From the NCBI GenBank assembly GCA_020073165.1, contig JAIQFP010000014.1, forward strand, positions 1 through 64,000: DNA of 64,000 nucleotides, given 5' to 3'. The notes beneath the pieces are model-generated. The model had not been told where the DNA came from. It saw nothing but the letters and a program-made list of their open reading frames with translations, and did no database searches. Positions 584-22,760 of the stretch are shown here, one piece after another; the stretch's first letter is position 1, and each line of letters opens with the position of its first letter. This DNA is from Terriglobia bacterium. Lineage in GTDB: Bacteria; Acidobacteriota; Terriglobia; Terriglobales; Acidobacteriaceae. A program made the translations under genes and the position numbers.

Positions 584-2050
584 TCAGTCGTTGCCTTCGT
601 CCTTGGCGGGCTCGGGCTCTTCATCCTCGGCGCGGATGAGGCCGAATTTCTTGAGCTTGTAGCGTAGCGCGTCGCGGGAGATATCGAGCAGTTTGGCGGC
701 GTGGGTCTGGTTGCCGTTGGCCTGGCGCATGGCGATCTCCACCATGGACCGTTCCACTTCTTCGAGCGATGTCCCGCCTTCTGGGATGTACAGCCGGGGC
801 AGCATGCGGCCGTTGGCCAGTTGCTGTCCGCCATCGCTCGGAGCGGTTCTCTCGAAGGCGGTCAGGCCGCCCGACTCCGCCACCGAGAACGGCAGATACA
901 CCGGCCGGATCAGCGGCTCTTCCTCCAGGATCATGGCCCGCTCGATCGAGTTCTTGAGCTCGCGCACATTGCCCGGCCAGTTGTGTCCCAGCAACAGGCG
1001 GCGCGTCTCCTCGGTAATCCCGCGCACCGACTTCTTAAACTTGCGGTTGTAGCGCTCGATGAAGAAATCCACCAGCGGCAAGATGTCTTCCTTCCGGTCC
1101 CGCAGCGGCGGAATAAAGATCGAAATAATGGCGAGCCGATAATAAAGGTCCTGCCGGAACTGGGTTTCGCGCACCGCCTTCTCCAGGTCGCGATTGGACG
1201 CCGCAATCACCCGCACATCCACCTGCATATCGCGCACCCCGCCCACCCGGCGAATCACCTGGTCCTCCAGCACCCGCAGCAGCTTGGCCTGCAACAGCGG
1301 AGAGAGCTCGCCAATCTCATCCAGAAACAGCGTTCCACCATCCGCCACCTCGAACAGACCCTTCTTCATCTGCTTGGCGTCGGTGAACGCACCCCGCTCG
1401 TGGCCGAAGAGTTCGGCCTCCATCAGCGTCTCCGGAATCGCCGAGCAGTTGATGGCCACGAAGGCCTTCTCCTGCCGCGAACTCTCGTAGTGGATGGCCT
1501 TGGCGATCAGGTCTTTGCCCGTGCCGCTCTCGCCCTGGATCAGGATGGTGGTGGCCTCGCTGGACGCCACCTTGCGCACGAAGTTCATCAGCTCGGTCAT
1601 CTTGGCCGAGGTGCTGACCACCTCGTGATAGCCGGCACGCCGCCGCACCTGCCCGCGCAGCGACTGAACTTCCGTGCGCAGCCGGGTGGTCTCAAGCGCA
1701 TTCTTGATGGCGACGTTGAGCTCGTCGAAGTCCAGCGGCTTGCCGACGAAGTCATAGGCGCCCAGCTTGAGCGCGGCTTTCACGTCGTCCAGTTGCGGGT
1801 CGGCGGTAATCATGATCACGGCGCGGGCGTCGCCGTTCTTCTTCAGTTGATCCAGCACCTCGAGGCCGCTGATGTCGGGCAGGCGCACGTCGAGCAGCAC
1901 CAGGTCGGGCGACTCGTTCTGCGCCAGCTTGAGCGCGGGCTCGCCGGCCTCCGCCTCCACCACGGCGTAGCCCCACTCCTCACACTTCTGCCGCAGCGAC
2001 CAGCGCACCAGGCGCTCGTCGTCAACCACCAGGATTTTCTCGGAGGGCAT
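584..2050 (-). CDS. Sigma-54-dependent response regulator, NtrC family
   Basis: The 488-aa protein has the three NtrC domains in order. An N-terminal receiver carries the acidic pair D10/D11, phospho-acceptor D54 in LVLLDVRLPD and K104. The central AAA+ domain has Walker A GESGTGKD (173-180) and Walker B LFLDEIGEL (241-249). A Fis-type helix-turn-helix is at the C-terminus (NQTHAAKLLDISRDALRYKL). It should activate sigma-54 promoters when phosphorylated. The sigma-54 contact loop reads GAFTDA (220-225) instead of GAFTGA, a variant seen in some family members. The partner is the kinase gene immediately upstream on the same strand. Position beside a cytochrome cluster suggests, but does not prove, that it controls that cluster. 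Confidence 0.95.
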   Translation of the reverse strand: MPSEKILVVDDERLVRWSLRQKCEEWGYAVVEAEAGEPALKLAQNESPDLVLLDVRLPDISGLEVLDQLKKNGDARAVIMITADPQLDDVKAALKLGAYDFVGKPLDFDELNVAIKNALETTRLRTEVQSLRGQVRRRAGYHEVVSTSAKMTELMNFVRKVASSEATTILIQGESGTGKDLIAKAIHYESSRQEKAFVAINCSAIPETLMEAELFGHERGAFTDAKQMKKGLFEVADGGTLFLDEIGELSPLLQAKLLRVLEDQVIRRVGGVRDMQVDVRVIAASNRDLEKAVRETQFRQDLYYRLAIISIFIPPLRDRKEDILPLVDFFIERYNRKFKKSVRGITEETRRLLLGHNWPGNVRELKNSIERAMILEEEPLIRPVYLPFSVAESGGLTAFERTAPSDGGQQLANGRMLPRLYIPEGGTSLEEVERSMVEIAMRQANGNQTHAAKLLDISRDALRYKLKKFGLIRAEDEEPEPAKDEGND

Positions 2051-2154
2051 CGCTGTGTAACTAGCTTACTACGGAATGAGGGGGGGGCAGGAAACGAGGG
2101 CGCAAGCCAGGGGGAAGGTCACCAGCAGGCTGTTGCCCGTAGCGAGCCGTAGGC

Positions 2155-3267
2155 TTAACTGACTGCGGCCATCTCAGCGGCGGGGCGCTGCATCGGCAAC
2201 AGCACCACGAACTTGCTGCCCTTGCCCACCACGCTGGTCACTTCAATCCGCCCGTGGTGTTCTTCCACGATGCGCCGGGCCAGCGACAAGCCCAGACCGG
2301 TGCCGTTGCCCTTGGTGGTGTAGAACGGCCGGAAGATGTTGGGCAGATGTTCGGGCGGGATGCCGCGCCCAGTATCGCTGACGATGATGGCCGCGGACTC
2401 GCCATGGGGCTCGACCTCGACCGTGATTTTGCCCGGTCCCTCGATCGCCTGGATGGAGTTGAGCAGCAGGTTGAGCAAGACTTGATGAACCTGGCCGCTG
2501 TCATGCTCCACTTCGGGCAGGGCCTCAGCCTTCCGGAATTCGATCTGGATGGGCTTCGACAACGCCTGCTGACGCGCCAGCATCACGGCGTGCTCCACCG
2601 TGGTGTTCAGATTGCTGCGGCGAATCTCAGGGGGATGCGGCCGCGCCGTTTGCAGCAGGTCGGTAAGGATGTGGTTGATCTGCGCGATCTCGTGGCGCAC
2701 TTCTTTGACCACGGCACGGGCCGGACTGGTGGCGGGCAGATCGCGTCCGATGATTTCGATCACGCCGGCAATTCCGGCCAGAGGGTTGCGAATCTCGTGG
2801 GCCAGGCCGGTCGCCAGCTCGCCGAGGGTTGCCAGGTGCTCGGCACGCGACATTTGGGTGCGATGCAGGCGTTGGATTTCTTCCCGGCTCTCGCGCAACT
2901 GCGCGACCATGCGGTTGAAGTTGCGTCCCAGGTCGCCAATCTCGTCGTTGCGCCGGGCAAAGCGCACCGACGCGTTCAAGTCCCCTTCGCCTACGCGGGC
3001 GATCTTCTCCTGCAACTCCACCATGGGACGCTGGATCAGGAAGGCGAGTACCACGAGGAGAGCCGCACAGATGGCGACCGCGCCGCCGCCGGCAACCAGC
3101 AGCACCATGTGGCGTTCGGGATCGCGCCACGATACCGTCGCCAGCATGAACAGCAGCAAGCCGTTCAGCAACACGAATGCGATCGGCAACACCGCCTTGA
3201 TCTGCCAATGAATGCGCACCGCACCCACGCCGGATGTCTCCTCTGTGGCTGGCACTGTTGTTTGCAT
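2155..3267 (-). CDS. Membrane histidine kinase (HAMP, HisKA, HATPase), partner of the NtrC-type regulator
   Basis: The 370-aa kinase has two membrane segments (about 22-45 and 54-78) separated by only about eight residues, so there is no periplasmic sensor domain. A HAMP linker follows (about 79-131), then the phospho-acceptor H157 in GLAHEIRNPL, the N-box around N270, DTGRGI (298-303) and GTGLGL (322-327). The start at 3267 was chosen because AAGGGA lies just upstream; the frame is open further upstream but that stretch looks non-coding. It is followed about 100 bp later by the response regulator, making a two-component pair. The signal must come from the membrane, the cytoplasm or a partner protein. 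Confidence 0.93.
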   Translation of the reverse strand: MQTTVPATEETSGVGAVRIHWQIKAVLPIAFVLLNGLLLFMLATVSWRDPERHMVLLVAGGGAVAICAALLVVLAFLIQRPMVELQEKIARVGEGDLNASVRFARRNDEIGDLGRNFNRMVAQLRESREEIQRLHRTQMSRAEHLATLGELATGLAHEIRNPLAGIAGVIEIIGRDLPATSPARAVVKEVRHEIAQINHILTDLLQTARPHPPEIRRSNLNTTVEHAVMLARQQALSKPIQIEFRKAEALPEVEHDSGQVHQVLLNLLLNSIQAIEGPGKITVEVEPHGESAAIIVSDTGRGIPPEHLPNIFRPFYTTKGNGTGLGLSLARRIVEEHHGRIEVTSVVGKGSKFVVLLPMQRPAAEMAAVS

Positions 3268-3436
3268 TATGTTCCCTTTGCTCGCCGGGCAACAAGGTGG
3301 CAGACCGGTGCCGTCTTCCGGTCCACCGTTTTCCGTACTGATGTGGTAAAGGTGGCAGGATGCAGGCCGTGACGAAGCGGTCGCCGGGACCGCCTCCGGC
3401 TCTGGCGGCGTCGTAGAACTGGGTTCTCGTTTCGTA

Positions 3437-4837
3437 TCAAGCATAAGCATGTAATCCAGGTAACAAGTAAGTCACCCCGAAGAAGGTGAACATCACTACC
3501 ACGAATCCCAGAATGGCGAAGTAAGCTGCGCGGCGGCCGCGCCAGCCGCGGGTGATGCGCATGTGTAGATACCCGGCGTAGACCAGCCAGGTAATGGCCG
3601 CCCAGGTCTCCTTCGGGTCCCAGCTCCAGTAGGAGCCCCACGTACGGTTGGCCCAGTAGGCGCCGGCGGCGATCATCAGGGTGAGTAAGGGAAAAGCAAT
3701 GGCGATGGTCTTGTAGGTGATGCGGTCCAGATCTTCCGCGCTGGGCAACATGCGCTCCAGGTCCTGGCGACGCCAGAGCAAGAGCAGATACAGCAGCGAT
3801 ACGAAGATGCTGCCCACGAGCCCCGAAAGGATGAACGGGCTGGCGGCCAGGCTTGTCGGGAACAACCCGTCGGCATCGAGCGACGCATAGCTTCCATCGC
3901 GGGCGCGAAGCAGGAAGAACACCAGCGCCAGAATCTGCATCAGGATGCTGACGAAGACCACACGGTTGGCGACATCAATGAGTCCTTCAGCGTGCTTCCA
4001 GCGCGACACCAGGTACAGGACCAACGGGGCCGCCACCGCCGCCAGCACCATCAGCATCAGCCAGCCCAAGTCAGGAATCACTACGAACAGTCGCGCGCCC
4101 TTGGCCAGGAAGACCTCGGCCTTCCGCTCTGGATCCCACGCCACCACGCTCAGTCCTCCCCATTTTTCGAAGCGAGTTAGAACGCCCAGATAAGTGGCGA
4201 TGCCGAACGCGCTGGTCGCGGCCAGGAAGGTCTCCGTCTTCATCTTGTCCTGGATCAGAAACATCATGGCCAGCGCGAAGCTCAGGGCGCAGGCGGCATA
4301 GGCCAGCATAGCCAGGGTCACATGGACGTGCAGCCAGGTTGATTGCAGCGCCGGAACCAGGGGATGAACTTCGGTGCGCAGCAACTGCATCAGGATGACC
4401 CCGACAATCGCCACCGGCATGGTCACCGTGCCGATGACTTTCACACCATACTTTTTCTCGGCGATCAGCGTCAGCACTGCCAGCGTCCACACGAAGCTCA
4501 GCAGCATTTCGTAGATGCTGGCGAACGGCGGATGCCCGGCTTCATACCAGCGATGCGCCACCGCCCCGGTGTTGGCCAGCATCCCCGCCCAGGTGGCCAG
4601 CGAGGCAAAGCGCACATAGGATTCCGTGCCAGTTACTCCAAATCCGAGGTAAAGCGCACCTGCGCCGGCATAGAAAATCAGCGCGGCATAGAGCAGGTTG
4701 GATTCGTTGAGCAGGTTGCCCGTCTTGACCACGTTCAGAAACGCCATGAACAGCAGGAAGGCCACGCTCAGCCCAACCAGGACCACTAGCGTGGTGCCGG
4801 TCGCCGCGGGTTGCTGTTCCACTCTCGCACGCGCCAT
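3437..4837 (-). CDS. ccsA: Cytochrome c maturation protein CcsA/ResC type (System II)
   Basis: The 466-aa protein is rich in membrane segments and carries the haem-handling WWD-type signature WGSYWSWDPKETW at about residues 400-412, the mark of the CcsA/CcmC/CcmF superfamily. Conserved histidines occur in WLHVHVT and near the last segments. In System II, CcsA and Ccs1/ResB together export haem and attach it to CXXCH motifs of apocytochromes outside the cytoplasmic membrane. The ResB-type partner lies directly upstream, 21 bp away. Location back-to-back with genes for 32 haem sites strongly suggests a dedicated or major maturation system for them. Subfamily names (ccsA, ccsB, resC) vary between genomes. 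Confidence 0.93.
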   Translation of the reverse strand: MARARVEQQPAATGTTLVVLVGLSVAFLLFMAFLNVVKTGNLLNESNLLYAALIFYAGAGALYLGFGVTGTESYVRFASLATWAGMLANTGAVAHRWYEAGHPPFASIYEMLLSFVWTLAVLTLIAEKKYGVKVIGTVTMPVAIVGVILMQLLRTEVHPLVPALQSTWLHVHVTLAMLAYAACALSFALAMMFLIQDKMKTETFLAATSAFGIATYLGVLTRFEKWGGLSVVAWDPERKAEVFLAKGARLFVVIPDLGWLMLMVLAAVAAPLVLYLVSRWKHAEGLIDVANRVVFVSILMQILALVFFLLRARDGSYASLDADGLFPTSLAASPFILSGLVGSIFVSLLYLLLLWRRQDLERMLPSAEDLDRITYKTIAIAFPLLTLMIAAGAYWANRTWGSYWSWDPKETWAAITWLVYAGYLHMRITRGWRGRRAAYFAILGFVVVMFTFFGVTYLLPGLHAYA

Positions 4838-4858: not shown

Positions 4859-6313
4859 CTACACTCCGACCAGTGAAGGCTCTTCTTCCTGCACCCGGGC
4901 AGATGCCTGGATGCGCAGCTTCAACTCCGCCTCGATCTCCCCCACCAGCTTCTGAAAGCGTTCTTCAAAGGCTTCTTTGTTCTTATTGGCCGCGCCGCCC
5001 ACCCACAGAGTGAGGTGTCCGCGGGCGTCCACCACCGGTACCGCCCAGAAGCGCATGTGCACCACATAGAACACCACTGCCAGCCCAAACCCCATCAGGA
5101 TGACTCCCGCCCAGACCGCCCATTGCCCCGGCTCATGGGAAACTTCCAGGCCGGTGAAATAGCCCATTCGCAGATCTTTGGCTTCGAATCTGTAAGGGGA
5201 GTCTGCGTTCTGCTCGAAGCCCGGGATCGGCGGCAGCCACACGTTGGTGGCTTTGCCCGTCGTCTTCGACGTGACGATCAGGTGGGCCGCTGGGTTCTCG
5301 ACCTCGGTCGAGCGCGAGTACACCTGACCATCGCGCACGACGTAATCGGGAATGAATTCGGCCAAGCGGACCGAGGTATCGCTGTCGAGTTGGACGGGAT
5401 CGTTCTCGCTCAAAGCGATTTCCCCGGGATCCCCCTGCCCATTCGCAGGGCTGACGGTAAGAACCAGTTTGTCCACCTTGCCGGTGCTGCCATAGCTGGC
5501 CTGGTAGAAGCGAACCCCGCGGTACACCAGCGGATCGTTCACCACAATTTCCTTGCGCAGGACTTCCTGTCCGCCGTCCAGCACGGCCAGCTTCGACCAC
5601 CACTTCTTGGGCGAGCCATCCGCGTAGTTCTCCTGACCGGCGCCGTCGCAGCGAATGGCAAAGGGCAGCGTACGGCCGCTGCCATCATGCATCTGAACCT
5701 GGCCGGACTGCTGCCCGCGGGTCAGCGCCACGAATCCGCGCCAGCCATAAAGCGCATCCACGATGCCGCCCAGGAAGATGAGCAACAGACTGGCATGCAC
5801 TATGTACACCGCCATGACGGAGATACGGCTGCGCTCGGCGAAAAGCGAAACGCGATCGTTCTTCGTCACTCGCTCCGGCTTCAACCCCAGGTGCCGAAAG
5901 GCGCGCTCGGCCGTCGCCAAACCCGCTCTCTCGTCTGCGATGGCAATCTGCGTTTGAGTGGCCAGCATTTTTCGGAAGCTCTCATCTGGGCTCTTGTATG
6001 GACGGGCGTAAAAGCGCCAAGCATTGGGAAAGCGCTGGATAGACGCCGCCACGATGCTCAGGCTGACCAGCGCCAGCAGCAGCACGAACCACCAGGCATG
6101 GAACGTATCGGTGAGTCCGATCGCGTCGAGCAGGCGCAGCATTTCGGGAGAATAGGCGCGCTGCATTTCATCGGCATCGGTCACCGGCCGCTGCAGGATC
6201 AAAGTCCCCGCCGCCGAGACGATCACCACGATGATCAGCAGGATCACACCGGTCTTGATGGAACTGAGTGTCTGCCAGATGGAGCGGCCAGCGGTGCGCA
6301 GCGTTCCAGCCAT
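4859..6313 (-). CDS. resB: Cytochrome c maturation protein ResB/Ccs1 type (System II)
   Basis: The 484-aa protein shows the ResB plan: two N-terminal membrane segments (SSIKTGVILLIIVVIVSAAG and the segment around WWFVLLLALVSLSIVAA), a third at SVMAVYIVHASLLLIFLGG, a large periplasmic domain, and a last membrane segment (WAVWAGVILMGFGLAVVFY) before a charged cytoplasmic tail. The start at 6313 is preceded by GGAGGA at good spacing; the frame is open 21 codons further. It is the partner of the CcsA-type gene downstream and should hold apocytochromes reduced and positioned for haem ligation. It heads the minus-strand set, divergent from the cytochrome cluster. Confidence 0.92.
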   Translation of the reverse strand: MAGTLRTAGRSIWQTLSSIKTGVILLIIVVIVSAAGTLILQRPVTDADEMQRAYSPEMLRLLDAIGLTDTFHAWWFVLLLALVSLSIVAASIQRFPNAWRFYARPYKSPDESFRKMLATQTQIAIADERAGLATAERAFRHLGLKPERVTKNDRVSLFAERSRISVMAVYIVHASLLLIFLGGIVDALYGWRGFVALTRGQQSGQVQMHDGSGRTLPFAIRCDGAGQENYADGSPKKWWSKLAVLDGGQEVLRKEIVVNDPLVYRGVRFYQASYGSTGKVDKLVLTVSPANGQGDPGEIALSENDPVQLDSDTSVRLAEFIPDYVVRDGQVYSRSTEVENPAAHLIVTSKTTGKATNVWLPPIPGFEQNADSPYRFEAKDLRMGYFTGLEVSHEPGQWAVWAGVILMGFGLAVVFYVVHMRFWAVPVVDARGHLTLWVGGAANKNKEAFEERFQKLVGEIEAELKLRIQASARVQEEEPSLVGV

Positions 6314-6430
6314 ATCTCTCGCTTCCTCCCGGGGTAGGAAATGCACTTTCCGCGCCACATGCGACCAATCGTGCAAAGTCGTTGCATGTCATGCGCTTGA
6401 GAGTTGCTGCGCAGAAAGTGGACGACCGCG

Positions 6431-6445: not shown

Positions 6446-6721
6446 ACACAGTCAGACAAGAGGTAAGCGGGAATTTGACGCACGCGGCGGCGGGTGTAGA
6501 TCACATAAGCCGGTGATATGAGTCCTAGGGCCGAACGATCCCGGGGTTGTCAAATGTTCCTTAACGGGAATGCCAGCCCAAATTTCCATCTTGGGAACCA
6601 GGCGAGGGCCTCAAACGGCCGCCCTCCCCCCTTGGGTCATTTCACCAATCCCACTGAGGGAGAAGGCCCATTTCGAGGTTAAGCCGCCCCTGTTGAAAAA
6701 TGCCACACATCCTTATCTTGC

Positions 6722-6752
6722 ATGTAAGAGTTTTTGCATCAGCAACTTACAT
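6722..6752 (+). promoter_or_regulatory. Stem-loop in the leader of the cytochrome cluster
   Basis: ATGTAAG (6722-6728) pairs with CTTACAT (6746-6752), and the inner TTGC pairs with GCAA across the loop ATCA, leaving a five-base bulge. It lies 60-90 bp before the first cytochrome start, so it could be an operator or a leader RNA hairpin. Confidence 0.35.
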
Positions 6753-6812
6753 CGGCTGCGGAGAAACTCAGCAATCCTGGCTGCCGCGGCGAGCCTCGTG
6801 CACAGAAGTCTC

Positions 6813-8282
6813 ATGGAGGGTGAGGTGAGAGTGGCCGGAGCAAAGCCGAGCGTGAATTTCCCGGGGGGCATTCAGCTGCTGGTAGCTGTCTTGCTAGTCG
6901 GCGCCCCGCACGCCTTCGCGGCGAAACACCCCGTCCCGCTCGACCCCAAGACCGATTCCGCGACTTGCCTGCAGTGCCACGAAGATAAGTCAAAAGGGAA
7001 AGCGGTCCACTCCGCCATCGCGATGGGTTGCACCAGCTGTCACGAAGTCCGGGCCAACAAAGATGCGACCTACGTGAAGCTGATCACGGCCACGCCTTAC
7101 AAGCTCTGCCTCACCTGCCACAGTGACAAGGATGCGACTCAGATCCAGGGCCATGTGCACCAGCCGGCCGTCCGCGACTGCCTGACGTGCCACGATCCCC
7201 ACACCTCTGACAACAAGAATCAATTGCTCAAGGCAACTTCCGGCGGTGAGAAAGAGAACCTCTGTCTCAGCTGCCACAAGACCGGGCTGAACGTACCCGA
7301 CAACGGTAGCCGCCATGCCGCCCTCGACATGGGCTGTGAGACCTGCCACACGACGCACAAGGTCGGCGAGATTGGCAAGAGAGAATTCGAGTTCCATCTG
7401 GCGAAAGCCACCCCGGCGCTCTGCCTGGACTGCCACGATGCCAAGGACGCTAACCTGCAGAAGGCGCACCAGAACCAGCCCTTCGGTTCGGCGGATTGCG
7501 TAACCTGCCACGATCCGCACCAGTCGCGCAGCCCAAAGCTGATGCAGGCTTTCCTGCACAATCCCTTCGAAAACAAGATGTGCGACACCTGCCACCAGCC
7601 GGCGAAAGACGGCAAAGTGGTGCTGACGCAAGCGGACGCTAAGTCGCTATGCGTCACCTGCCACGAAGACAAGGCCAAGCTGATCGACTCCGCCAAGGTA
7701 CAGCATCCCGGCGCGGCGGGCGATTGCACCGATTGTCATAGCCCGCACGCGAGCAAGAGCCCGGGCTTACCTAAGACGGATCCGGTGAGCATCTGCCTCG
7801 ACTGTCACACTGACATCGCCGAGTTGGCCAAGAAGAGCGTCCATCACCAGCCCGCGTTCGGCCAGGGATGCGCCACCTGCCACGAGCCTCACGGCGGCGA
7901 GCGTCCCAAACTGCTGCGCGCGCAAGGCAATGCCCTCTGCCTGGAGTGCCACGGTCCCGAGTCGCGGCCGCAAGAGCTGCAAGCCGAACACCTGCTCACG
8001 ATTTTCGACGGCAAGGTGAAGCTCCCGGAGGACTACTACAAGAAGAACAAGGTGGTCATCCTCCCGCTGAAATACGGGCTCGGCCACCCGGTGGACTATC
8101 ACCCGGTGTCGGACGTGATGGATCCGACCGATATCACCAAGGTCAAGACCCCGATGAGCTGCCTGACCTGCCACCAGCCACACTCATCGGCGAAGCCAGG
8201 GTTGCTGGCGAAGGATCAGGAAAACAACATGGCGTTCTGCGACACCTGCCACAAGAACAGGGTCACGATGGGAGCGCATTAG
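6813..8282 (+). CDS. Multihaem c-type cytochrome with 16 CXXCH motifs
   Basis: The 489-aa protein has an N-terminal export signal (hydrophobic stretch about 20-36 ending APHAFA) and 16 CXXCH sites from C52 to the C-terminus, many as doubled-CXXCH pairs of the type CVTCHDPHQS. Spare histidines for the second axial ligands are abundant. Haem density is about one per 27 residues, so the protein is essentially a haem wire. No catalytic domain is visible. The start could be ATG 6813 or one of the GTG codons at 6825 or 6831. The stop is followed immediately by the NHL gene, indicating an operon. A role as periplasmic or outer-membrane electron carrier is inferred. Confidence 0.93.
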   Translation: MEGEVRVAGAKPSVNFPGGIQLLVAVLLVGAPHAFAAKHPVPLDPKTDSATCLQCHEDKSKGKAVHSAIAMGCTSCHEVRANKDATYVKLITATPYKLCLTCHSDKDATQIQGHVHQPAVRDCLTCHDPHTSDNKNQLLKATSGGEKENLCLSCHKTGLNVPDNGSRHAALDMGCETCHTTHKVGEIGKREFEFHLAKATPALCLDCHDAKDANLQKAHQNQPFGSADCVTCHDPHQSRSPKLMQAFLHNPFENKMCDTCHQPAKDGKVVLTQADAKSLCVTCHEDKAKLIDSAKVQHPGAAGDCTDCHSPHASKSPGLPKTDPVSICLDCHTDIAELAKKSVHHQPAFGQGCATCHEPHGGERPKLLRAQGNALCLECHGPESRPQELQAEHLLTIFDGKVKLPEDYYKKNKVVILPLKYGLGHPVDYHPVSDVMDPTDITKVKTPMSCLTCHQPHSSAKPGLLAKDQENNMAFCDTCHKNRVTMGAH

Positions 8283-8306
8283 ATGTTCACGAAGGAGAGC
8301 AGCGCA

Positions 8307-9593
8307 ATGTTCAAGGTCCGCCAACATTCGATTCTCAGCCGCAGAGCCATCGTGGCATTGGCGATTGTGCTGGTTCTGGCGTTGATCGCGCCGGTCTCGC
8401 TCTACGGTGGCAAGAAAAAGAAGAATGCGGCCGTCGCTGCGAAGCCGCAGGAGCCGCGCTTCCCGGCAAATCTGGACACCTCCAAGCTGGTCTGGCCCGC
8501 GCCGCCAAATATTGCGCGCATCCGGTACCTGAGCTACTTCGCGGGCATGAAGATCGACTATGCCGGAGCGGAGAAAAAAAAGAAGAAGCAGGGCTGGATG
8601 GATCGCCTGGCTGGCGCGCAGCAAAAAGACGACGACCAGGTCATCAAGGAATTCCCCTTCCAGCTCCTGGGGCCATATGGCATTGCTTTCGATTCCAAGG
8701 GCCTGGTGTATGTCGCCGATCAGCGCGTAGGCGCGATCTTCATCTTCAACACCGAGACCCGGGACGTTCAGCTCATTCGCAACAAGTTTGAAGCCACCTT
8801 TGGCCTGATCAATGGCGTGGCGATTGACGCGGGCGACCGCCTGTTTGTTTCGGATGGGAAATTGCACCGTGTCCTGATCTTCGACCCCACCCATAAGGTC
8901 GAGGGGCAGATCACCGAGGGCTTGGTCGATCCGGTAGGGCTGGCGATCGACAGCGAGAACCGCTTCCTCTATGTCGTGGACACCCAGCAGGACCAAGTCA
9001 TTGTCTACGACGCCGACAGCCTCAAGCTGCTGCGCCGCATCGGAACCGGAGGCAAGAACCACTGGCTCACCGCCCCCGGCGACTTCGCCGCACCGTCGAA
9101 CGTTGCCCTCGACAAGGACGGCAACGTCTACGTGACCGATACCTTGAACAACCGGGTAGAGATCTTCGACGCGGACGGCAACTTCATCAGCTGGTTCGGC
9201 AAGCATGGCGATGGTCCGGGATACTTTGCCCGTCCCAAAGGGATTGCGCTGGACTGCGACGGCCATATCTGGGTCGCGGACGAGATGCAGGACCGCGTCC
9301 AGGTCTTTGATCGCCAGGGTGAACTGCTCGCCTTCTTCGGCGGACATGGGAACTATCCCGGCACGTTCGCGGCCCTGACAGGCGTGGCGATTGACAAGCA
9401 GAACCGGGTTTTTACGACCGAGCAATATCCCGGTCGAATGCAGATGTTCCGCTATATCACCGACGCTGAGGCAGCAGCCGAAAAAGCGCGGCGTGAGGCT
9501 GAACGTGAGCAAAAGTCAGGAAATTCGCAGAAGCCGGTGGATGCGCCGAAGGATGATGCGCAAGTCAAGGCATCAGGTTCCGCGGCGCAGTAG
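8307..9593 (+). CDS. Exported six-bladed NHL beta-propeller protein
   Basis: The 428-aa protein has an N-terminal signal or anchor (about 12-35), a lysine-rich stretch (GGKKKKN and later EKKKKKQ) and six NHL-type blades with the pattern GIAFDSKGLVYVAD...VFD, ending in a charged, low-complexity tail. Such propellers act as binding scaffolds; no catalytic site is apparent. A good ribosome binding site (AAGGAG) precedes ATG 8307; an in-frame ATG at 8283 directly after the previous stop is possible. A second propeller with the same layout is encoded at 13529-14632. Clustering with cytochromes suggests a role in assembling or organising them at the cell surface. Confidence 0.9.
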   Translation: MFKVRQHSILSRRAIVALAIVLVLALIAPVSLYGGKKKKNAAVAAKPQEPRFPANLDTSKLVWPAPPNIARIRYLSYFAGMKIDYAGAEKKKKKQGWMDRLAGAQQKDDDQVIKEFPFQLLGPYGIAFDSKGLVYVADQRVGAIFIFNTETRDVQLIRNKFEATFGLINGVAIDAGDRLFVSDGKLHRVLIFDPTHKVEGQITEGLVDPVGLAIDSENRFLYVVDTQQDQVIVYDADSLKLLRRIGTGGKNHWLTAPGDFAAPSNVALDKDGNVYVTDTLNNRVEIFDADGNFISWFGKHGDGPGYFARPKGIALDCDGHIWVADEMQDRVQVFDRQGELLAFFGGHGNYPGTFAALTGVAIDKQNRVFTTEQYPGRMQMFRYITDAEAAAEKARREAEREQKSGNSQKPVDAPKDDAQVKASGSAAQ

Positions 9594-9692
9594 GCGAGAA
9601 GGTTTTGGCGGTTTTTGGACTGCCGAAACGGGGATGGGCCAAGCCGGCGCCTGTCTCCGGCTGTAGTAGCAGTAAGCAGTAGTAGCAGTGAC

Positions 9693-9704
9693 GTGTTGCA
9701 ACAC
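9693..9704 (+). promoter_or_regulatory. Perfect 12-bp palindrome upstream of the tetrahaem cytochrome
   Basis: GTGTTGCAACAC is a perfect palindrome ending nine bases before the AGGAGG ribosome binding site of the tetrahaem gene. It sits in a 132-bp gap between genes of the cluster, where an internal promoter or operator would be expected. Two AGTAGCAGT direct repeats precede it. Confidence 0.35.
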
Positions 9705-9725
9705 ATCATTCAGGAGGTCTTATCA

Positions 9726-10604
9726 ATGAAGAAAGTATTCTTAGTACTGCTGATGGTTCTAGCCGTAGCAGGGTTCGCTCTGGCGCAGATCAAGAATCCG
9801 ACATCTGACGTCCTTGGAGCGCACCTCAACTATGGCCGTGGCTGCGCAGCCTGCCACGCTCCGCACAGCGGCGCGTACGGCAACGGTGCAGCCGGACATG
9901 CCGATAGCGGTTCCGGAAACATCGCCCTGTGGGGCCAGGATGTCGGTGCTCTTTTCGGGCAAACGATCATCACCGGCCAGAGCGAGCACGGAAGCTACTC
10001 GGAAACTCTGCCCGCAACCTGGGACAACTCCCGGCCGGACGTTGCCAACTTGCTGACTTGCCTGAGCTGCCACGACGGCAACTATGCCCAGGGCGCCATG
10101 ATGAAAAACACGGTGTATGAGACCTTACCGAGCACCTACGGGAACAAGAACTCCATCCCGACCCTGCTCGGCAACGACAACACCAGCACCAACAACTACC
10201 TGAACGACCACCCAGTGGGTATTAACGCCTACGTTGAGTGCGGTGGAACCTACGATTGGGATTGCTCGGAAACCAACGGCACCATCTCAATGAACGGACC
10301 GGGTTCTTCTGCCTTCGTTACGAACTATGGCTTTTTTGTCAGCCTGAAAGCCTACAACAGCAACGCCACGGTCATGTGCACGAGTTGCCACAACCAGCAC
10401 CTGATGAACGTGGTCAAGGTCACGACGGGGTCGAAGAGCGGCCTGCCCTCGGGCAACTACGCGACCATGTTCTTCATTCGCGCTCCGTACAACCCGGCCA
10501 GCGGCACCGCCGGATCGAACCAGACGGCGCAGTTCTGCCGCCAGTGTCACGGTGGCGAGGCCAACGAGATGAACGGTGGCCTGACCATACCGACAACCTT
10601 CTAA
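9726..10604 (+). CDS. Exported tetrahaem c-type cytochrome (candidate filament or surface subunit)
   Basis: The 292-aa protein has a classic signal peptide ending FALAQ (residue 21) and four CXXCH sites (C40, C112, C218, C271). The first is in the motif CAACHAPHSG, which recurs in the 12-haem protein of the cluster (CTYCHAPHSG) together with a following ALW or PLW. Two further cysteines, C172 and C180, may form a disulphide. The long loops are rich in Asn, Gly, Ser and Thr, as in secreted proteins. It has the best ribosome binding site of the cluster (AGGAGG), its own upstream gap and a terminator-like hairpin behind it, all pointing to high output. Similarity to OmcE-type nanowire cytochromes is a hypothesis from haem number and context only. 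Confidence 0.9.
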   Translation: MKKVFLVLLMVLAVAGFALAQIKNPTSDVLGAHLNYGRGCAACHAPHSGAYGNGAAGHADSGSGNIALWGQDVGALFGQTIITGQSEHGSYSETLPATWDNSRPDVANLLTCLSCHDGNYAQGAMMKNTVYETLPSTYGNKNSIPTLLGNDNTSTNNYLNDHPVGINAYVECGGTYDWDCSETNGTISMNGPGSSAFVTNYGFFVSLKAYNSNATVMCTSCHNQHLMNVVKVTTGSKSGLPSGNYATMFFIRAPYNPASGTAGSNQTAQFCRQCHGGEANEMNGGLTIPTTF

Positions 10605-10613
10605 CTGTAACCC

Positions 10614-10639
10614 GGGGAGAGAGCAATCTCTCCCCACTT
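10614..10639 (+). terminator. Terminator or attenuator hairpin after the tetrahaem cytochrome
   Basis: GGGGAGAGA (10614-10622) and TCTCTCCCC (10627-10635) form a perfect 9-bp stem closed by a GCAA tetraloop and followed by ACTTTT. It lies 10 bases beyond the stop of the tetrahaem gene and 27 bases before the foldase gene. The short T run suggests partial termination, giving more tetrahaem message than downstream message. Confidence 0.75.
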
Positions 10640-10665
10640 TTCAAACTGTGGGGCGAGGACAAATC

Positions 10666-11685
10666 ATGAAATCCAAGTTTTTCACCTGCGTGCTGGTCCT
10701 GGCAACACTCTCGCCAGTGTCGGCCCAGCTCGTGGCTTCCCACGCCTCTACCCAGACACCCAAGACCCCTGCGGCAGCCCCTCAGCCGACAGGCAAGGCG
10801 GTTGCCCGCGTAAACGGCGCGGTCTTGACCGACTATGACCTGCTGCGCGAGGAGTACACAATTTTTCCTTACGCGCGCCAGCACAACGGCAGCATTCCCA
10901 AAGAGATGGAAGCCGGGATTCGTGACGGCGCGATGCAGATGATCATCTTTGAAGAGCTGGTTTACCAGGAAGCGTTGCGGCGGAAGATGACGATACCCGC
11001 GCTGAAGCTACAGAAAGCGGAGAAGGACTTCCGCGGGCAGTTTCACAGTCCGGGCGAGTACGAGCGATTCTTGCAGACTGAGTTTCAGGGCTCCGGGCAG
11101 GCACTGCGCGACAAGATCCGGCGTTCCTTGCTGATCGACGCAATGCTCAAGGCCGAGGTGGACAGCAAGGCGGTTATTTCGGTGCCCGAGCTGCGGGCCG
11201 CTTACAACGCCAACCCGGCGCGCTTCGAGTACCCGGAATCTTTTGCCATTCAGACGATTTCGCTGCTGCCCCCGCAGAATGCGACGCCGCAGCAATTGGA
11301 AGAAGCGCGCAAACGGGCGGAGGCTGCGCTGCCCCAGGCCAAGGCGACGAAGAGTTACGAAGAATTCGGGGTACTCGCCGAGAAGATTTCTGAGGACGAC
11401 TATCGCGTGATGATGGGTGACCACAAGGCCGTGCCGCGCGCGAAGCTTGCGCCGCAAATGGTCCAGGCGCTGCTGGCCCTGCAGCCGGGGCAGGTCGCCG
11501 ACATCATCCACGTGGAACAGATTTATACCATCGTCCGGCTGAACCAGCACATTCCAGCCGGCAAAGCGAAGTTCGAAGAGGTGAAACAGCAGTTGAAGAA
11601 GGAACTGGAGCAGAAGAAAACCAACCAGCTCCGCTCCGGTCTGGGTAAGAAACTGCGGCAGAACGCCAAGATTGAGGTCTTGTAG
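10666..11685 (+). CDS. Exported peptidyl-prolyl isomerase / SurA-type chaperone (PpiC family)
   Basis: The 339-aa protein has a signal peptide (KSKFFTCVLVLATLSPVSAQ), a SurA-like N-terminal helical domain starting at VARVNGAVLTDYDLLREE, and a parvulin-like part around YEEFGVLAEKISED...LAPQMVQALLALQPGQVADIIH, with a helical C-terminus. It should act outside the cytoplasmic membrane on unfolded exported proteins. Lying between the tetrahaem cytochrome and the beta-barrel gene, it is probably a dedicated foldase for one of these. The start at 10666 gives the signal peptide directly; an in-frame start six codons upstream is less likely. Confidence 0.88.
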   Translation: MKSKFFTCVLVLATLSPVSAQLVASHASTQTPKTPAAAPQPTGKAVARVNGAVLTDYDLLREEYTIFPYARQHNGSIPKEMEAGIRDGAMQMIIFEELVYQEALRRKMTIPALKLQKAEKDFRGQFHSPGEYERFLQTEFQGSGQALRDKIRRSLLIDAMLKAEVDSKAVISVPELRAAYNANPARFEYPESFAIQTISLLPPQNATPQQLEEARKRAEAALPQAKATKSYEEFGVLAEKISEDDYRVMMGDHKAVPRAKLAPQMVQALLALQPGQVADIIHVEQIYTIVRLNQHIPAGKAKFEEVKQQLKKELEQKKTNQLRSGLGKKLRQNAKIEVL

Positions 11686-11708: not shown

Positions 11709-13547
11709 GTGCGTAGGCGTTTCCAAATCGGGTGGGTAACGGTAGCCGGACTTGTGCTCTTCGTGCTGCCGGCTGCGGGGCAGGTCCAGGTCGGGGATAA
11801 CCTCAGCATGAACCTGACCGGCAATGTCTCCGCAGGATACTCGGCAACCTATGGCAACTTGATGGACTCCTCCCACAACCTGAGTTTTGGAGGCAACGGC
11901 ACGCTCTCGGGTTCTTACTACGATCCGAATTTTCTGTCCTTCAATTTCACTCCCTATTACGATCAATCGCGGGCCAACTCCAACTATCAATCCATCTCCG
12001 CCGCCACCGGCTTCGACTTTTCCAGCGGAATCTTCAGCGGCAGCCACTTTCCCGGATCGATCACCTTCGCCAAGGCGTACAACAGCCAGGGAAGCTTCGC
12101 CGTTCCGGGGGCGGCCGATTTCACCACCCACGGGGACAGCACCACCTTCGGTGTCAACTGGAGCGAACTGGTTCCCGATTTGCCGAGCCTGTCGTTCGGT
12201 TATCAGCAGGGCAGCAACGAATACTCCGTTTATGGAACCAATGACACCGGCAGCTCCCATCACCATGCCTTCAATGTTCGGTCCGGTTACCTCCTCGAAG
12301 GGTTTAACCTCAGCGCGTATTACTCCAAGGGAGCATCGCAGTCTCTGATCCCACAGGTTGTGGGGAACACGGCACAGCCGGAGAGCACAGACTCTGACAG
12401 CAGTGCGTACGGATTCGCGGTGTCACACAGCCTTCCTCTCCGGGGCCAGTTCTCCGCGGGCTTCAACCGCTCCGACATCAACAGTCACTATCTGGGGTAC
12501 AACTATAACGGCACCATTGATACAGTCGACGCCAGCGTGAGTGCGCAACCGACCAACAAACTGCATCTGGCGGTGAGTGCGAACTATACCGACAACCTTA
12601 ACGGAGTGTTGTACCAATCCATCGTTCCTACTGCCGGTGCGGTAGTGCCCTCCAATCAGGAGTCGTCGAGCGCGACTGACTTGCTGGGCTCTGCGAGCTA
12701 CAACATCTTGCCGAACCTGCAAACGCAAGTGTATGCCGACCGCCGCACCCAACAATTCCTTGGACAGGACTATGGAGCGACCGGCTACGGAGCAGGAGTC
12801 AGCTACGGGCGCGATCTTCTCGGCGGCTCGATCAGCACTTCTGTATTCCTCATCGACAACACCCTGGACCACAGCGACCAAAACTCGCTCGGTCTGAACA
12901 CTTCCGTGAGCTACAACCGGAGGCTCGGCAACTGGTCCTTTGGAGGATCTTTCAACTACGCCCAGAACGTACAAACCCTGCTGGTCACGTACACGACTTC
13001 GTACTACAACTACTCGATGAATGTAAGACGCCGGTTCACGCGCCAGTTGGTATGGACCGCAAGCGCGGGATTCTCGCAGACCGGACTCACCACCCAGAGG
13101 GATACCGGTAACAAGAGTCAAAGCTTCTCCACCGGGCTTGGGTATGGGCGTTGGATCAGTGCAAATGGTTCGTACTCGCGAGCCGATGGGCACGGTCTTG
13201 TGTATGGAGGTGGGATCACGCCAATCCCGCTGCCGCCCGTAGTGCCGGACAACCTGCTGATCCTCTACGGCGGTAGGAGTTATTCCTTTTCGGCGTCGAG
13301 CACGCCGATTCGCCGCTTTACCGTGTCCGCAGGCTTCTCCAAGGCGAACAGCAATACGTTCAATGCCGGCCTGGGGTCCTGGAACTCCGTTGAACAGTTT
13401 AATACCCTGATCCAATACCAATTCCGTAAGATGTACTTCACAAGCGGGTATGCCCGGCTTGTGCAGGGGTTCAGCGCATCGGGCACTCCGCCAGCCAAAG
13501 TGTCGTCGTTTTTTGTAGGAGTGTCCAGATGGTTCAATTTCTTCTAA
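11709..13547 (+). CDS. Outer-membrane beta-barrel protein of the cytochrome cluster
   Basis: The 612-aa protein starts with GTG and has a signal peptide (MRRRFQIGW...LPAAGQ). The rest alternates polar and hydrophobic/aromatic residues in short strands separated by Asn, Gly and Ser-rich turns, as in a large monomeric outer-membrane barrel, and it ends in Phe (VSRWFNFF), the usual signal for the BAM machinery. There are no CXXCH motifs. Set among multihaem cytochromes, it is a good candidate for the porin sheath of a porin-cytochrome conduit, analogous in role to MtrB or to the barrel components of Geobacter clusters; sequence family was not established. Its 3' end overlaps the next gene by 19 bp. 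Confidence 0.82.
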   Translation: MRRRFQIGWVTVAGLVLFVLPAAGQVQVGDNLSMNLTGNVSAGYSATYGNLMDSSHNLSFGGNGTLSGSYYDPNFLSFNFTPYYDQSRANSNYQSISAATGFDFSSGIFSGSHFPGSITFAKAYNSQGSFAVPGAADFTTHGDSTTFGVNWSELVPDLPSLSFGYQQGSNEYSVYGTNDTGSSHHHAFNVRSGYLLEGFNLSAYYSKGASQSLIPQVVGNTAQPESTDSDSSAYGFAVSHSLPLRGQFSAGFNRSDINSHYLGYNYNGTIDTVDASVSAQPTNKLHLAVSANYTDNLNGVLYQSIVPTAGAVVPSNQESSSATDLLGSASYNILPNLQTQVYADRRTQQFLGQDYGATGYGAGVSYGRDLLGGSISTSVFLIDNTLDHSDQNSLGLNTSVSYNRRLGNWSFGGSFNYAQNVQTLLVTYTTSYYNYSMNVRRRFTRQLVWTASAGFSQTGLTTQRDTGNKSQSFSTGLGYGRWISANGSYSRADGHGLVYGGGITPIPLPPVVPDNLLILYGGRSYSFSASSTPIRRFTVSAGFSKANSNTFNAGLGSWNSVEQFNTLIQYQFRKMYFTSGYARLVQGFSASGTPPAKVSSFFVGVSRWFNFF

Positions 13548-14632
13548 ATGGGGTGCAAGGAAGAAGCGTGCGGCGGCTGGTGGCGGGCTGCGCACTGCTT
13601 TTGCTGCTGACGCCGTCCTGGGCAGCCCGATCTTCCCAACAGAAAGCCGCTGAGCCAGCGCCTCCAGACCTGATGCTGCAGGGTGGCCGCAAGCTCGCCT
13701 GGGAGCGCAGCTTCAATTGGGAACGCGAGGTGAAGCCGAAACGCGGCTTCTGGAATCGGCTTCTGGATGTGGTTGCCGGAGAGCCCGAATTCCACGTACT
13801 GATCCGCCCCTACAGCATTGTGACCGATTCGCGCGGACGAGTCATAGTCACCGATCCGGGCGCGCCCGGGGTCCATCTTTTCGATTTTGCCCAGCAGAAG
13901 TACAAGTTCATCTCACGGGCGGAAAAAGAGAACGACCCCATGCTCGCTCCGCAATGCGTCGCCGTGGATGCGCAGGACAACATCTATGTCACCGATTCGG
14001 ACTCGGGCAAGATCTTCGTGTTCGACGCCAACGGAAAGTATCAGCGCGCGATCGGCAGCCTGAAAGGCGGCGAGGGCTATTTCAAGCGTCCCACCGGAAT
14101 CGCGGTGGACTCCTCCACGCAGCGAATTTATGTCACTGACACCTTGCGCAACCAGATTTTCATGCTCGATCTGCAAGGCAGCGTCCTGCAGAAGATTGGC
14201 AAGACCGGCACCGGCAATGGCGAATTCAATTATCCGACCGAGCTCCGCCTGGATGGCCAGGACCTGATCGTGGTGGACGCGATGAATTTCCGGGTGCAAG
14301 TACTGGACCGGTCGGGAACGTTCAAGTACGCCATCGGGAAGATCGGCGACAGCACGGGAGACATGTTCCGCCCGAAAGGAGTCGCGGTCGACTCCGAGGG
14401 AGACCTCTACGTGGTGGACGGATTGTGGGGCCTGGTGCAGGTGTTTAACCGGCAGGGCCAGTTGCTCTACTACTTCGGAGGCCACGGTACGGGCGCGGGG
14501 CAGTTCCAGTTGCCCGCGGGTCTCTTCATCGATCGCAATGACCGCATCTTTGTGGTCGATTCCTATAACCATCGTATTCAGGTGTTTCACTACTTTGGGC
14601 TACCGAAACAGGCCAGAGGGGGTATGCAGTGA
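13529..14632 (+). CDS. Second exported six-bladed NHL beta-propeller protein
   Basis: The 367-aa protein has a signal peptide (RRLVAGCALLLLLTPSWAA) and six NHL blades (for example RPTGIAVDSSTQRIYVTD and RPKGVAVDSEGDLYVVD). It resembles the propeller at 8307-9593 in layout, including the Trp-containing segment before the first blade (KRGFWNRLLDVVAG compared with KQGWMDRLAG), so the two look like paralogues. The start codon lies inside the barrel gene and has GGAG in front; the stop overlaps the GTG of the next gene. This tight coupling indicates co-translation of barrel, propeller and cytochrome. The Cys in VAGC precedes the hydrophobic core, so it is not a lipobox. Confidence 0.9.
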   Translation: MVQFLLNGVQGRSVRRLVAGCALLLLLTPSWAARSSQQKAAEPAPPDLMLQGGRKLAWERSFNWEREVKPKRGFWNRLLDVVAGEPEFHVLIRPYSIVTDSRGRVIVTDPGAPGVHLFDFAQQKYKFISRAEKENDPMLAPQCVAVDAQDNIYVTDSDSGKIFVFDANGKYQRAIGSLKGGEGYFKRPTGIAVDSSTQRIYVTDTLRNQIFMLDLQGSVLQKIGKTGTGNGEFNYPTELRLDGQDLIVVDAMNFRVQVLDRSGTFKYAIGKIGDSTGDMFRPKGVAVDSEGDLYVVDGLWGLVQVFNRQGQLLYYFGGHGTGAGQFQLPAGLFIDRNDRIFVVDSYNHRIQVFHYFGLPKQARGGMQ

Positions 14633-16590
14633 AATCCAGAATTCTATTATCGTGCGTGATCCTCCTTCTGGCCGGGAGTTCACTGTGGGCGCAACTTGGG
14701 GGAGATGTGATCGGCGTTCACGATCTGGGACCGGGAAGCAAGTCTCCCACGACCGGAGCTCGGACCGATTTCTGTACCTACTGCCACGCGCCTCACTCGG
14801 GAATTACCGCCAGCACCGCTCCGCTCTGGAACCAAACGCTGACTACGCAGACTTACACGACCTACACCAGCACCAGTTATCACCAGACTGGCAATGCCCA
14901 GCCGATGCTGGGGAGCGACAGCAACCTGTGTCTGAGTTGCCATGACGGGACGGTTGCACCAGGAACGACGGCCGTCTTCGGCCAGGTAGCCATGATAGGT
15001 TCCATGAGCGGTAGCGATGTCTTCGGGACCAGCCTGCAATCGTCCCACCCCTTCAGCCTGGTTCTGCCCATCAAGGACGCCGCCGACCTGGTGGAGACAC
15101 TAGCTTCCAAGGGCACCACCGCCGACCCAACCGGCGCCATCAGACTCATCAACGGAAATGTCGAGTGCACTTCCTGCCACAACCCGCATGTGCAGGCAAA
15201 GGATGCGATCGCGCAGGACTTTCTGGTAAAGGACAGTTCAAAGGGCGCGATGTGCCTGGCTTGCCATGACCCCAATCGCGTCCTGGAAGGGCAGACCAAC
15301 CCCCTCAACGGTTGGTACACAAGTATTCATGCCATTGCGACCGATGCCATAGACAACCTGCCCTACCCAACTTTGGATCAGAACGCATGCGTTTCCTGCC
15401 ACACCAATCACAATGCCCCCGGCGCGGAGTGGTTGCTGCGGGGCGCGGGAGACCAGGACTGCCTGGACTGCCATTCCGGATCCAGCAATGCTGGGAATAT
15501 CACGGAGGCGAACTTCCCCGGCCGTAGTACGGCCAGGCTTCCCGCGGTTGTGGCTCCTGCCAGTGTGACGGCGAAGCTCAACGTAGCCGCCGAGTACGCC
15601 AAGATTGGCCACCCGCTATTCTCGGGGGCTAACCCGGTTGCGATGAGAGCGAAATCCAGGATTCGGACTCAGAGTGCGGACCCCAACAATCCTTCGCTAT
15701 CGGGCTGTATCGACTGCCATGATCCTCACTCTGTGCAAAGTGTCACGAGCTTCAGCCCGGCGCCGGGTGTTCGCCCTTCGCAGAAAGCGCTTGTGGGGGT
15801 CAGCGAGAAGGATGGAGTGACCCTGCTTCGCCCGGCGCAGAATCAATTCGAAACCTGTTTGCGCTGCCACGGCGTCAACTCGAGCAAGATGTCGAGCAGT
15901 GCGAAGTACGGGTACGAACCGGTGCGGTTAGCATCGACCAGCGACCCGCTGAACGTGATCCCGCAATTCGGCGTGACTGCAGCCTCAAGTCATCCGGTTT
16001 TTCATCCCCGCAGCAGCCCGCTGCCGCAACCCAGCCTTCTGCCCAACATGTGGAACCTGAATGGCACCACCGAAGGGCGTGCGATGGGTGTCCAGATCTT
16101 TTGTACCGATTGCCACAACAGCGATGACAACCGGGAATTCGGAGGCACCGGGCCCAGCGGGCCGCACGGTTCGAAGTGGAGCCACATCTTGGAGCGCCGC
16201 TACGAGTTCAGCCAGACGCCCGCTCCGGGACAACTTATAACAAACCTGAACCCGAGTCCTGATCTCAGCGTCAACGGCCCGTATGCACTGTGCGGCAAGT
16301 GCCACAACCTGTCAAACATCATGCAGAACGCCAGCTTCAAACAGCATTCATCCCACATCAATGCGGGCTTGAGTTGCTCGACTTGCCACACGGCACATGG
16401 CATGGGAGCCACGAGCACAAATATTTCCGGGCAGCGACTGGTGAACTTCGACGTCAGTGTGGTCGGGCCCAACGCGACGTATCCCATTTCCTATAACCGC
16501 GACAGCAACACGTGTACTCTCACTTGCCACAACACGGCGCATAATCCTGATGGCACGGTAGTTGCAGCTGGTGTCGGCAGGAAGAAGTAA
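14629..16590 (+). CDS. Multihaem c-type cytochrome, 11 CXXCH plus one CX3CH motif
   Basis: The 653-aa protein begins with GTG overlapping the previous stop and has a signal peptide (KSRILLSCVILLLAGSSLWAQ). Eleven CXXCH motifs start at C49 (CTYCHAPHSG, shared in form with the tetrahaem protein). The last haem site is non-standard: C629-T-L-T-C633-H634, a CX3CH spacing. Haem density is lower than in the 16-haem protein, leaving room for larger folded domains, as in cell-surface cytochromes. It is probably the outer-face partner of the barrel protein; whether it is surface-exposed cannot be read from the sequence. No lipobox is visible. Confidence 0.93.
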   Translation: MKSRILLSCVILLLAGSSLWAQLGGDVIGVHDLGPGSKSPTTGARTDFCTYCHAPHSGITASTAPLWNQTLTTQTYTTYTSTSYHQTGNAQPMLGSDSNLCLSCHDGTVAPGTTAVFGQVAMIGSMSGSDVFGTSLQSSHPFSLVLPIKDAADLVETLASKGTTADPTGAIRLINGNVECTSCHNPHVQAKDAIAQDFLVKDSSKGAMCLACHDPNRVLEGQTNPLNGWYTSIHAIATDAIDNLPYPTLDQNACVSCHTNHNAPGAEWLLRGAGDQDCLDCHSGSSNAGNITEANFPGRSTARLPAVVAPASVTAKLNVAAEYAKIGHPLFSGANPVAMRAKSRIRTQSADPNNPSLSGCIDCHDPHSVQSVTSFSPAPGVRPSQKALVGVSEKDGVTLLRPAQNQFETCLRCHGVNSSKMSSSAKYGYEPVRLASTSDPLNVIPQFGVTAASSHPVFHPRSSPLPQPSLLPNMWNLNGTTEGRAMGVQIFCTDCHNSDDNREFGGTGPSGPHGSKWSHILERRYEFSQTPAPGQLITNLNPSPDLSVNGPYALCGKCHNLSNIMQNASFKQHSSHINAGLSCSTCHTAHGMGATSTNISGQRLVNFDVSVVGPNATYPISYNRDSNTCTLTCHNTAHNPDGTVVAAGVGRKK

Positions 16591-22063: not shown

Positions 22064-22726
22064 CTAGTTGGACAGCGCCTTCGCCGGAGTTCCAGGCTTT
22101 ACCCCCGAATGCTTCTTTGCCTCTGCGATCAGCTGCAGCACCTTGTCCTTGCTTTCGTAGTTTGGGTTGGCTTGCAGCAGCTTCTCCCACGACGCCACAG
22201 CGCCATTGACATCCATCTTCCCTTGCCACTTCACTACTCCGAGATTGAACAGCGTGTTTGCCTTGTTAGGCTCGTACGAGAGTGTCTTGTTGAACTCGGC
22301 GATCGCCGTGTCGGCGTCCCCTATGTACCAGTACGCGGTTGCCATGTCGGTGCGGATATCGGTGTTGGCCGGTTGTGCTTTCAGAGAACGCTGGTAGTAG
22401 TCGATGGCGGCCGGGTACTGCTGCGCGTCGTAATAGATGTTCCCGACATTCGCCAACAGGTCGGCATTGTTCGGATCAGACTTCAGCTTCTCCAGCAGTG
22501 GTGCCGCCTGGGTGTCGGCCATTTTCTTCATCTGCTCCGGCGTGGGTTGCGCGCCGATGCCAGCGGGCGCAGAGGCGCTTGCGTTTTCCACGAGCGGCCC
22601 GGCCGCGGGAGATTGCGACCCGCGGAAAAGCCAGCCCCCGGCCACTCCGATCAGCAGGCAGATCACTGCCAGGGTGTAGGCCTGCATGCTGGTCCATTCT
22701 GGGGAGGTGTTCCTGGTGTCCGACAT
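22064..22726 (-). CDS. Membrane-anchored TPR protein (copy 2 of a tandem pair)
   Basis: The 220-aa protein has a short cytoplasmic N-terminus, one membrane anchor (TLAVICLLIGVAGGWLFRGS), a low-complexity linker, and tetratricopeptide repeats from about residue 80 (NADLLANVGNIYYDAQQYPAAIDYYQRSL, TDMATAYWYIGDADTAIAEFNKTL, TLFNLGVVKWQGK). It is a paralogue of the next gene upstream, with the same anchor motif GxLFRGSxSP and the same LLEKLKxDPxNADLL segment. Similar anchored TPR proteins include CcmH/NrfG-like factors of cytochrome c assembly, but no CcmH domain is present, so that role is not supported. It is the second gene of a two-gene operon. Confidence 0.88.
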   Translation of the reverse strand: MSDTRNTSPEWTSMQAYTLAVICLLIGVAGGWLFRGSQSPAAGPLVENASASAPAGIGAQPTPEQMKKMADTQAAPLLEKLKSDPNNADLLANVGNIYYDAQQYPAAIDYYQRSLKAQPANTDIRTDMATAYWYIGDADTAIAEFNKTLSYEPNKANTLFNLGVVKWQGKMDVNGAVASWEKLLQANPNYESKDKVLQLIAEAKKHSGVKPGTPAKALSN

Positions 22727-22760
22727 TTCCTGATGCTCCTTAAATTCTGGTTACGTCCAG

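Follow-up and report, generated by a model that had tools for sequence, protein, structure and literature searches.

A tetrahaem cytochrome of the Acidobacteriaceae, homologous to OmcE, as a probable nanowire subunit

We find that a secreted tetrahaem c-type cytochrome of the Acidobacteriaceae, here called TET, is a homologue of OmcE, and that it probably serves as the repeating subunit of an extracellular cytochrome filament of the OmcE type. Its gene lies in the window, by which we mean the whole stretch of 64,000 nucleotides that was analysed (Terriglobia bacterium, assembly GCA_020073165.1, contig JAIQFP010000014.1, positions 1 to 64,000), in a cluster with two further multihaem cytochromes, a foldase and a predicted outer-membrane barrel (Table 1). 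A first-pass annotation had read the gene as encoding a highly made, filament-type subunit and had pointed to the equal number of haems in TET and OmcE, which alone would have been weak evidence. Two independent lines of evidence drawn from sequence, the homology to OmcE and a conserved gene layout, now support that reading.

Table 1. Features of the cytochrome cluster and its flank in the window.
Feature	Position	Strand	Remarks
Sigma-54-dependent response regulator, NtrC type	584..2050	-	Syntenic in relatives
HAMP sensor histidine kinase	2155..3450	-	Syntenic in relatives
CcsA-type cytochrome c assembly protein	3437..4837	-	Syntenic in relatives
ResB, cytochrome c maturation	4859..6376	-	Syntenic in relatives; likely true start ~6313
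MHCa, 16-haem doubled-CXXCH cytochrome	6570..8282	+	True start probably nearer 6831 (Shine-Dalgarno, homology)
NHL1, exported NHL beta-propeller	8283..9593	+
12-bp palindrome GTGTTGCAACAC, TET leader	9693..9704		Sits in a 10+10 imperfect dyad, 9689-9708
Shine-Dalgarno sequence AGGAGG of TET	9712..9717	+
TET, secreted tetrahaem c-type cytochrome, OmcE-superfamily homologue	9726..10604	+	292 aa
Terminator-like hairpin, loop GCAA	10614..10641	+	Stem 10614-10622/10627-10635; short T run 10638-10641
PPI, SurA/PrsA-like PPIC-type foldase, UetB-like	10666..11685	+
BARREL, predicted outer-membrane beta-barrel	11709..13547	+	612 aa
NHL2, exported NHL beta-propeller	13529..14632	+
MHCb, 11-haem cytochrome	14629..16590	+	Residues 1-220 OmcE-like tetrahaem module, rest 7 haems

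The tetrahaem protein and its relation to OmcE

As had been annotated, the TET open reading frame encodes an exported tetrahaem protein of the length given in Table 1, with four CXXCH motifs and a Sec signal peptide, the signal being judged from the sequence. The mature protein is predicted to start at Q21 (window 9786-9788), a glutamine directly after the predicted cleavage site that is invariant in 44 of 44 TET proteins and possibly provides a pyroglutamate N-terminus or has a role at an interface. All eight cysteines of the CXXCH motifs are invariant in the same 44 proteins, as are exactly eight histidines, four of them within the motifs and four at positions 33, 47, 162 and 225, and four bis-histidine haems therefore fit the protein. 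Over 40 members with identities down to 42%, 63 alignment columns are invariant. A further pair of cysteines, C172/C180 (window 10239-10265), is not part of any haem motif; 41 of the 44 TETs have it and OmcE does not, and it possibly forms a clade-specific disulphide.

A single-sequence search of the PDB with TET gave no match and, as multihaem proteins diverge, profiles were needed. The profile of the TET family matched PDB entry 9yuq weakly, and 9yuq in turn matches OmcE (PDB 7tfs) at 7e-33; the entry has 16 chains, from which we infer a filament. Profile-profile comparison of TET with OmcE-like proteins gave a match at 99.3% (E 1.7e-20, 220 columns), and comparison with OmcE and 9yuq alone gave a score of 85.5 (138 columns); controls consisting of other multihaem pieces and motif-preserving shuffles scored no higher than 49.5. 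A profile was also built from 96 sequences comprising TETs, the N-terminal module of MHCb and OmcE-like sequences from Nitrospirota, Rhodoferax and other Acidobacteriota, with no PDB sequence included. In an hmmsearch of the whole PDB with this profile, 9yuq (3e-23) and OmcE (7tfs, 4.3e-21) had E-values smaller than that of the next match (1.7e-4) by about 16 orders of magnitude, whereas the hexahaem OmcS, which differs from TET in this respect, matched over a local stretch only (E 0.03). The same eight histidines are invariant in all 96 sequences, and they are common to OmcE, 9yuq and the OmcE-like proteins found in Nitrospirota, Rhodoferax and Acidobacteriota.

OmcE of Geobacter sulfurreducens, a tetrahaem filament, and 9yuq resemble TET in having four CXXCH motifs and a Sec signal, and in the order of their histidines (H..CxxCHxPH..CxSCHDG..HP..CxSCHxxH..CxxCH). 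OmcE and TET share about 25% identity and are 232 and 292 residues long, respectively, and TET differs in its extra conserved cysteine pair, a longer segment before the fourth haem and its placement on a long branch. In the tree, TET forms a separate deep clade (branch 2.71) away from the OmcE-like proteins and the MHCb module, and for this reason it is called a homologue and not an orthologue of OmcE, or OmcE itself. Taken as such a homologue, TET probably works like OmcE. Two AlphaFold2 models of the haem-free monomer reached pLDDT values of 54.7 and 71.4, and a Foldseek search of the PDB with the second of these, of moderate confidence, returned noise with no relevant match.

The surrounding cluster, its distribution and its known counterparts

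The foldase that the first-pass annotation placed right behind TET is indeed there, and is of the PPIC type. The protein that follows it is called a barrel because of its C-terminal phenylalanine, kept in nearly all relatives, and its position in the cluster; it had no match in Pfam, including to any Pfam porin model. For the 11-haem MHCb, the first 220 residues (window 14629-15288) carry the same eight histidines and match TET at 99.5%, and in a Nitrospirota locus (L048) two adjoining proteins correspond to its tetrahaem and heptahaem parts. With its subunit-like module, MHCb is a plausible candidate for the base of a filament. The idea that no gene in the cluster is better conserved than TET was considered and rejected, as MHCa and NHL2 are more conserved.

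Outside the cluster, a sigma-54-like site, TGGCGCGGAAAGTGCA (window 6342-6357, minus strand), lies just before the likely start of ResB; sites of this quality are equally frequent in shuffles, and the region also encodes a sigma-54 regulator. Two tandem TPR proteins (window 22064-23429, minus strand) weakly resemble the CcmH/CycH TPR domain and perhaps belong to cytochrome c biogenesis as well. The window also carries a bacterial class A RNase P RNA (29484-29877, plus strand; Rfam RF00010, 291 bits).

A scan of genome contigs yielded 48 loci, nearly all from Terriglobia/Acidobacteriaceae, and the order TET-PPI-BARREL-NHL2-MHCb is kept in all acidobacterial cluster copies on long-enough contigs. 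MHCa-NHL1 lies upstream of TET in the relatives of the window and downstream in another group (e.g. L012, L014, L019 and L023), where TET starts the block and where many genomes have a second, stand-alone TET. A second TET was found near the cluster at 15 loci, usually inverted beside MHCb and lacking the conserved terminator-like hairpin, and the kinase/sigma-54 regulator pair adjoins the second TET at loci L027 and L033. The part of the cluster from the tetrahaem gene to MHCb is present in Occallatibacter savannae AB23. Across the phylum, the TET profile matched 11 of 396 genomes; within the Acidobacteriaceae, a broader profile matched 89 of 300 genomes, and 66 of 207 good genomes, some of these matches being weak and possibly to an OmcE-like protein or MHCb-type module and not to TET. 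Among the matches listed, most genomes have both a TET and an MHCb module, at a distance of about 5 kb.

In gene content the cluster resembles Uet, an electron-uptake cluster of electrode- and iron-oxidising bacteria (Ca. Tenderia electrophaga, Gallionella), which encodes the tetrahaem UetA, the PPIase UetB, the barrel UetC, the NHL proteins UetHI, the undecahaem UetJ and the periplasmic trihaem proteins UetDEG (PMC10734462). By gene content, the window cluster shares with Uet the tetrahaem protein, the PPIase, the barrel, two NHL proteins and the 11-haem protein, and differs from it in the extra 16-haem MHCa and in its soil Acidobacteriaceae hosts; no trihaem gene, as UetDEG would be, lies between 6570 and 16590. 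Beside the OmcS genes of Geobacter, the eight-gene block GSU2500-GSU2493 has been linked to nanowire maturation and secretion, and duplicated subunits have been reported for OmcS and its homologues (PMC12977616). The OmcS locus and the TET cluster are alike in layout, with the gene for the subunit, or putative subunit, beside a conserved helper block and with duplication, as TETs too are duplicated in relatives, and a sigma-54 regulator and a kinase lie near each (GSU2506/2507; window 584-3450).

With MtrCAB and MtoAB, the window cluster shares the combination of a barrel and multihaem cytochromes, but MHCa has 16 haems and its similarity to the DmsE/MtrA family falls below the cut-off, and the cluster has neither a DmsE-family decahaem protein above the cut-off nor a match to an MtrB-type porin. 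The genome has another multihaem locus (L066, 9551-18124; contig C19 of genome G000, 59551-68124), which encodes an MtrA-like decahaem protein with an 801-residue barrel. Also encoded there are a NapC-like protein with 6 haems, a protein with 9 haems and one with 11 haems that includes a b-type cytochrome domain. Because of this separate MtrAB-like pair, the genome probably encodes at least two routes for extracellular electrons.

The leader and the hairpin of the tetrahaem gene

TET is preceded by the 132-bp gap (9594-9725) and the perfect 12-bp palindrome, GTGTTGCAACAC, that had been described for it. The 4.6-Mb genome contains a single exact copy of the palindrome, and sites with one mismatch are no commoner than those of a reversed control pattern. 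It recurs directly 5' of the Shine-Dalgarno sequence at seven loci from a subclade of relatives, with variant forms at two others (L028 and L054), and may act as an operator or form a hairpin in the mRNA leader. The AGGAGG element was found as annotated, but its rank as the strongest ribosome binding site of the cluster holds only in part, the site of MHCb being equally strong (computed anti-Shine-Dalgarno energies of -12.1 for MHCb and -11.0 for TET). A sigma-70 scan of the gap recognised no promoter, and an Rfam search of the leader and the hairpin matched no family at either. A sigma-54 promoter before TET is absent in the window and appears in two groups of relatives (8 of 42 against 2.6 expected), and it is not claimed here. 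Codon adaptation of TET is ordinary (CAI 0.584, above 65% of window genes, with ribosomal genes at 0.67), and codon bias was accordingly rejected as a sign of high expression. In many relatives TET opens the TET-PPI-BARREL-NHL2-MHCb block, with MHCa-NHL1 located elsewhere, and must thus have a promoter of its own.

The perfect 9-bp hairpin with its GCAA loop stands as first described, starting nine bases past the TET stop codon and folding with a dG of -18.4 kcal/mol (z -4.3), although the T run after it is short and weak (ACTTTTC). With a qualifying hairpin defined as a stem of 7 bp or more that includes five or more G-C pairs and lies no more than 80 nt from the TET stop, 45 of 47 cluster copies have one (median distance 15 nt), compared with 4% of shuffles of the same sequences; both exceptions are N-masked loci (L044 and L045), and the hairpin is present in every readable cluster copy. 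Both arms of the stem vary with pairing kept, the inner pairs changing from A-T to G-C and outer positions varying among A-T, C-G and T-A. Among 70 tetrahaem entries, which pool cluster and stand-alone copies with a few duplicates, 30 are followed by a hairpin with at least five T in the next 10 bases; for six other genes of the cluster, with 37-52 cases apiece, the count is 0-2 per gene. In a second set of loci, many of them probably from the same species as the first, the hairpin was found in 17 of 17. Stand-alone TETs have a qualifying hairpin in 5 of 17 cases and a G-rich arm plus T tail in 0 of 17. A strong hairpin also follows OmcE-like genes of other Acidobacteriota (L057, L058 and L059) and Nitrospirota (L048); the OmcE-like gene of Rhodoferax (L049) is without a strong hairpin 3' of the gene. 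Over the whole region, terminator-like sites are no more numerous than in shuffles.

In cluster copies the gap between TET and PPI is usually 56-101 nt, which leaves little room for a promoter, and the downstream genes therefore most likely depend on read-through. The conserved arrangement of putative subunit gene, hairpin and helper genes suggests that the TET subunit would be made in excess. We consider it rather unlikely that the hairpin is instead no dosage device, acting only as a stabiliser of the 3' end or as a full terminator, with the genes behind it driven from a promoter inside TET. The conserved structure does have a G-rich 5' arm, and the strong T runs of many relatives would terminate efficiently; however, the short gap argues against a separate promoter there, and a stabiliser would likewise raise TET over its neighbours and is thus only partly a rival to dosage control.

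A proposed filament and its alternatives

In the model that we favour, TET would be exported, carry four bis-histidine haems and form the repeating unit of an extracellular OmcE-type filament, and we infer polymerisation and haem contacts across subunits. The foldase and the barrel would serve its maturation and its export or anchoring, the 16-haem MHCa would provide the periplasmic or outer-membrane link, and the 11-haem MHCb, with its TET-like N-terminal module, would form the base of the filament. Transcription would start just 5' of TET, the hairpin would stop or trim most transcripts to leave the subunit in excess, and read-through would supply the helper genes. The promoter in the gap, the stoichiometry, the direction of electron flow and the placing of MHCb at the base are all proposed parts of this model.

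Homology to a nanowire cytochrome does not by itself make a protein a nanowire subunit, as has been cautioned (PMC12977616), and TET, whose clade is deeply set apart and has insertions of its own as well as the C172/C180 pair, could be a secreted or outer-surface tetrahaem protein of the same superfamily that remains a monomer or small oligomer without polymerising, acting at the barrel as a terminal reductase or oxidase or as a shuttle. We judge this rather improbable, given that all eight ligand histidines are kept in OmcE order, that the 63 invariant columns are more than haem ligation needs, that the genes are laid out for subunit excess, and that the partner MHCb carries an OmcE-like module. 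That the palindrome and hairpin are chance or REP-like repeats without regulatory meaning is very improbable: short palindromes are common and the region has no surplus of terminator-like sites, but the exact palindrome is single in the genome, the six neighbouring genes lack such a hairpin, and for the hairpin this reading is, by the sequence comparisons, already refuted by its frequency over shuffles and its covariation.

The wider proposal, that Acidobacteriaceae build from TET a distinct class of nanowire, nucleated and wired to an outer-membrane conduit by MHCb, extends the filament reading and is put forward more tentatively, as a possibility somewhat short of even chances. Few soil bacteria are as common as the Acidobacteriaceae, which are generally taken to be heterotrophs. 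If the filament reading is true, extracellular electron transfer through nanowires would be common in soil, with about one-third of the good genomes searched in the family carrying the module or a homologue. The conserved set of foldase, barrel and MHCb makes nanowire export and joining to the cell testable, and MHCb would, if the proposal is true, provide a cytochrome nanowire with a "socket" that is genetically defined.
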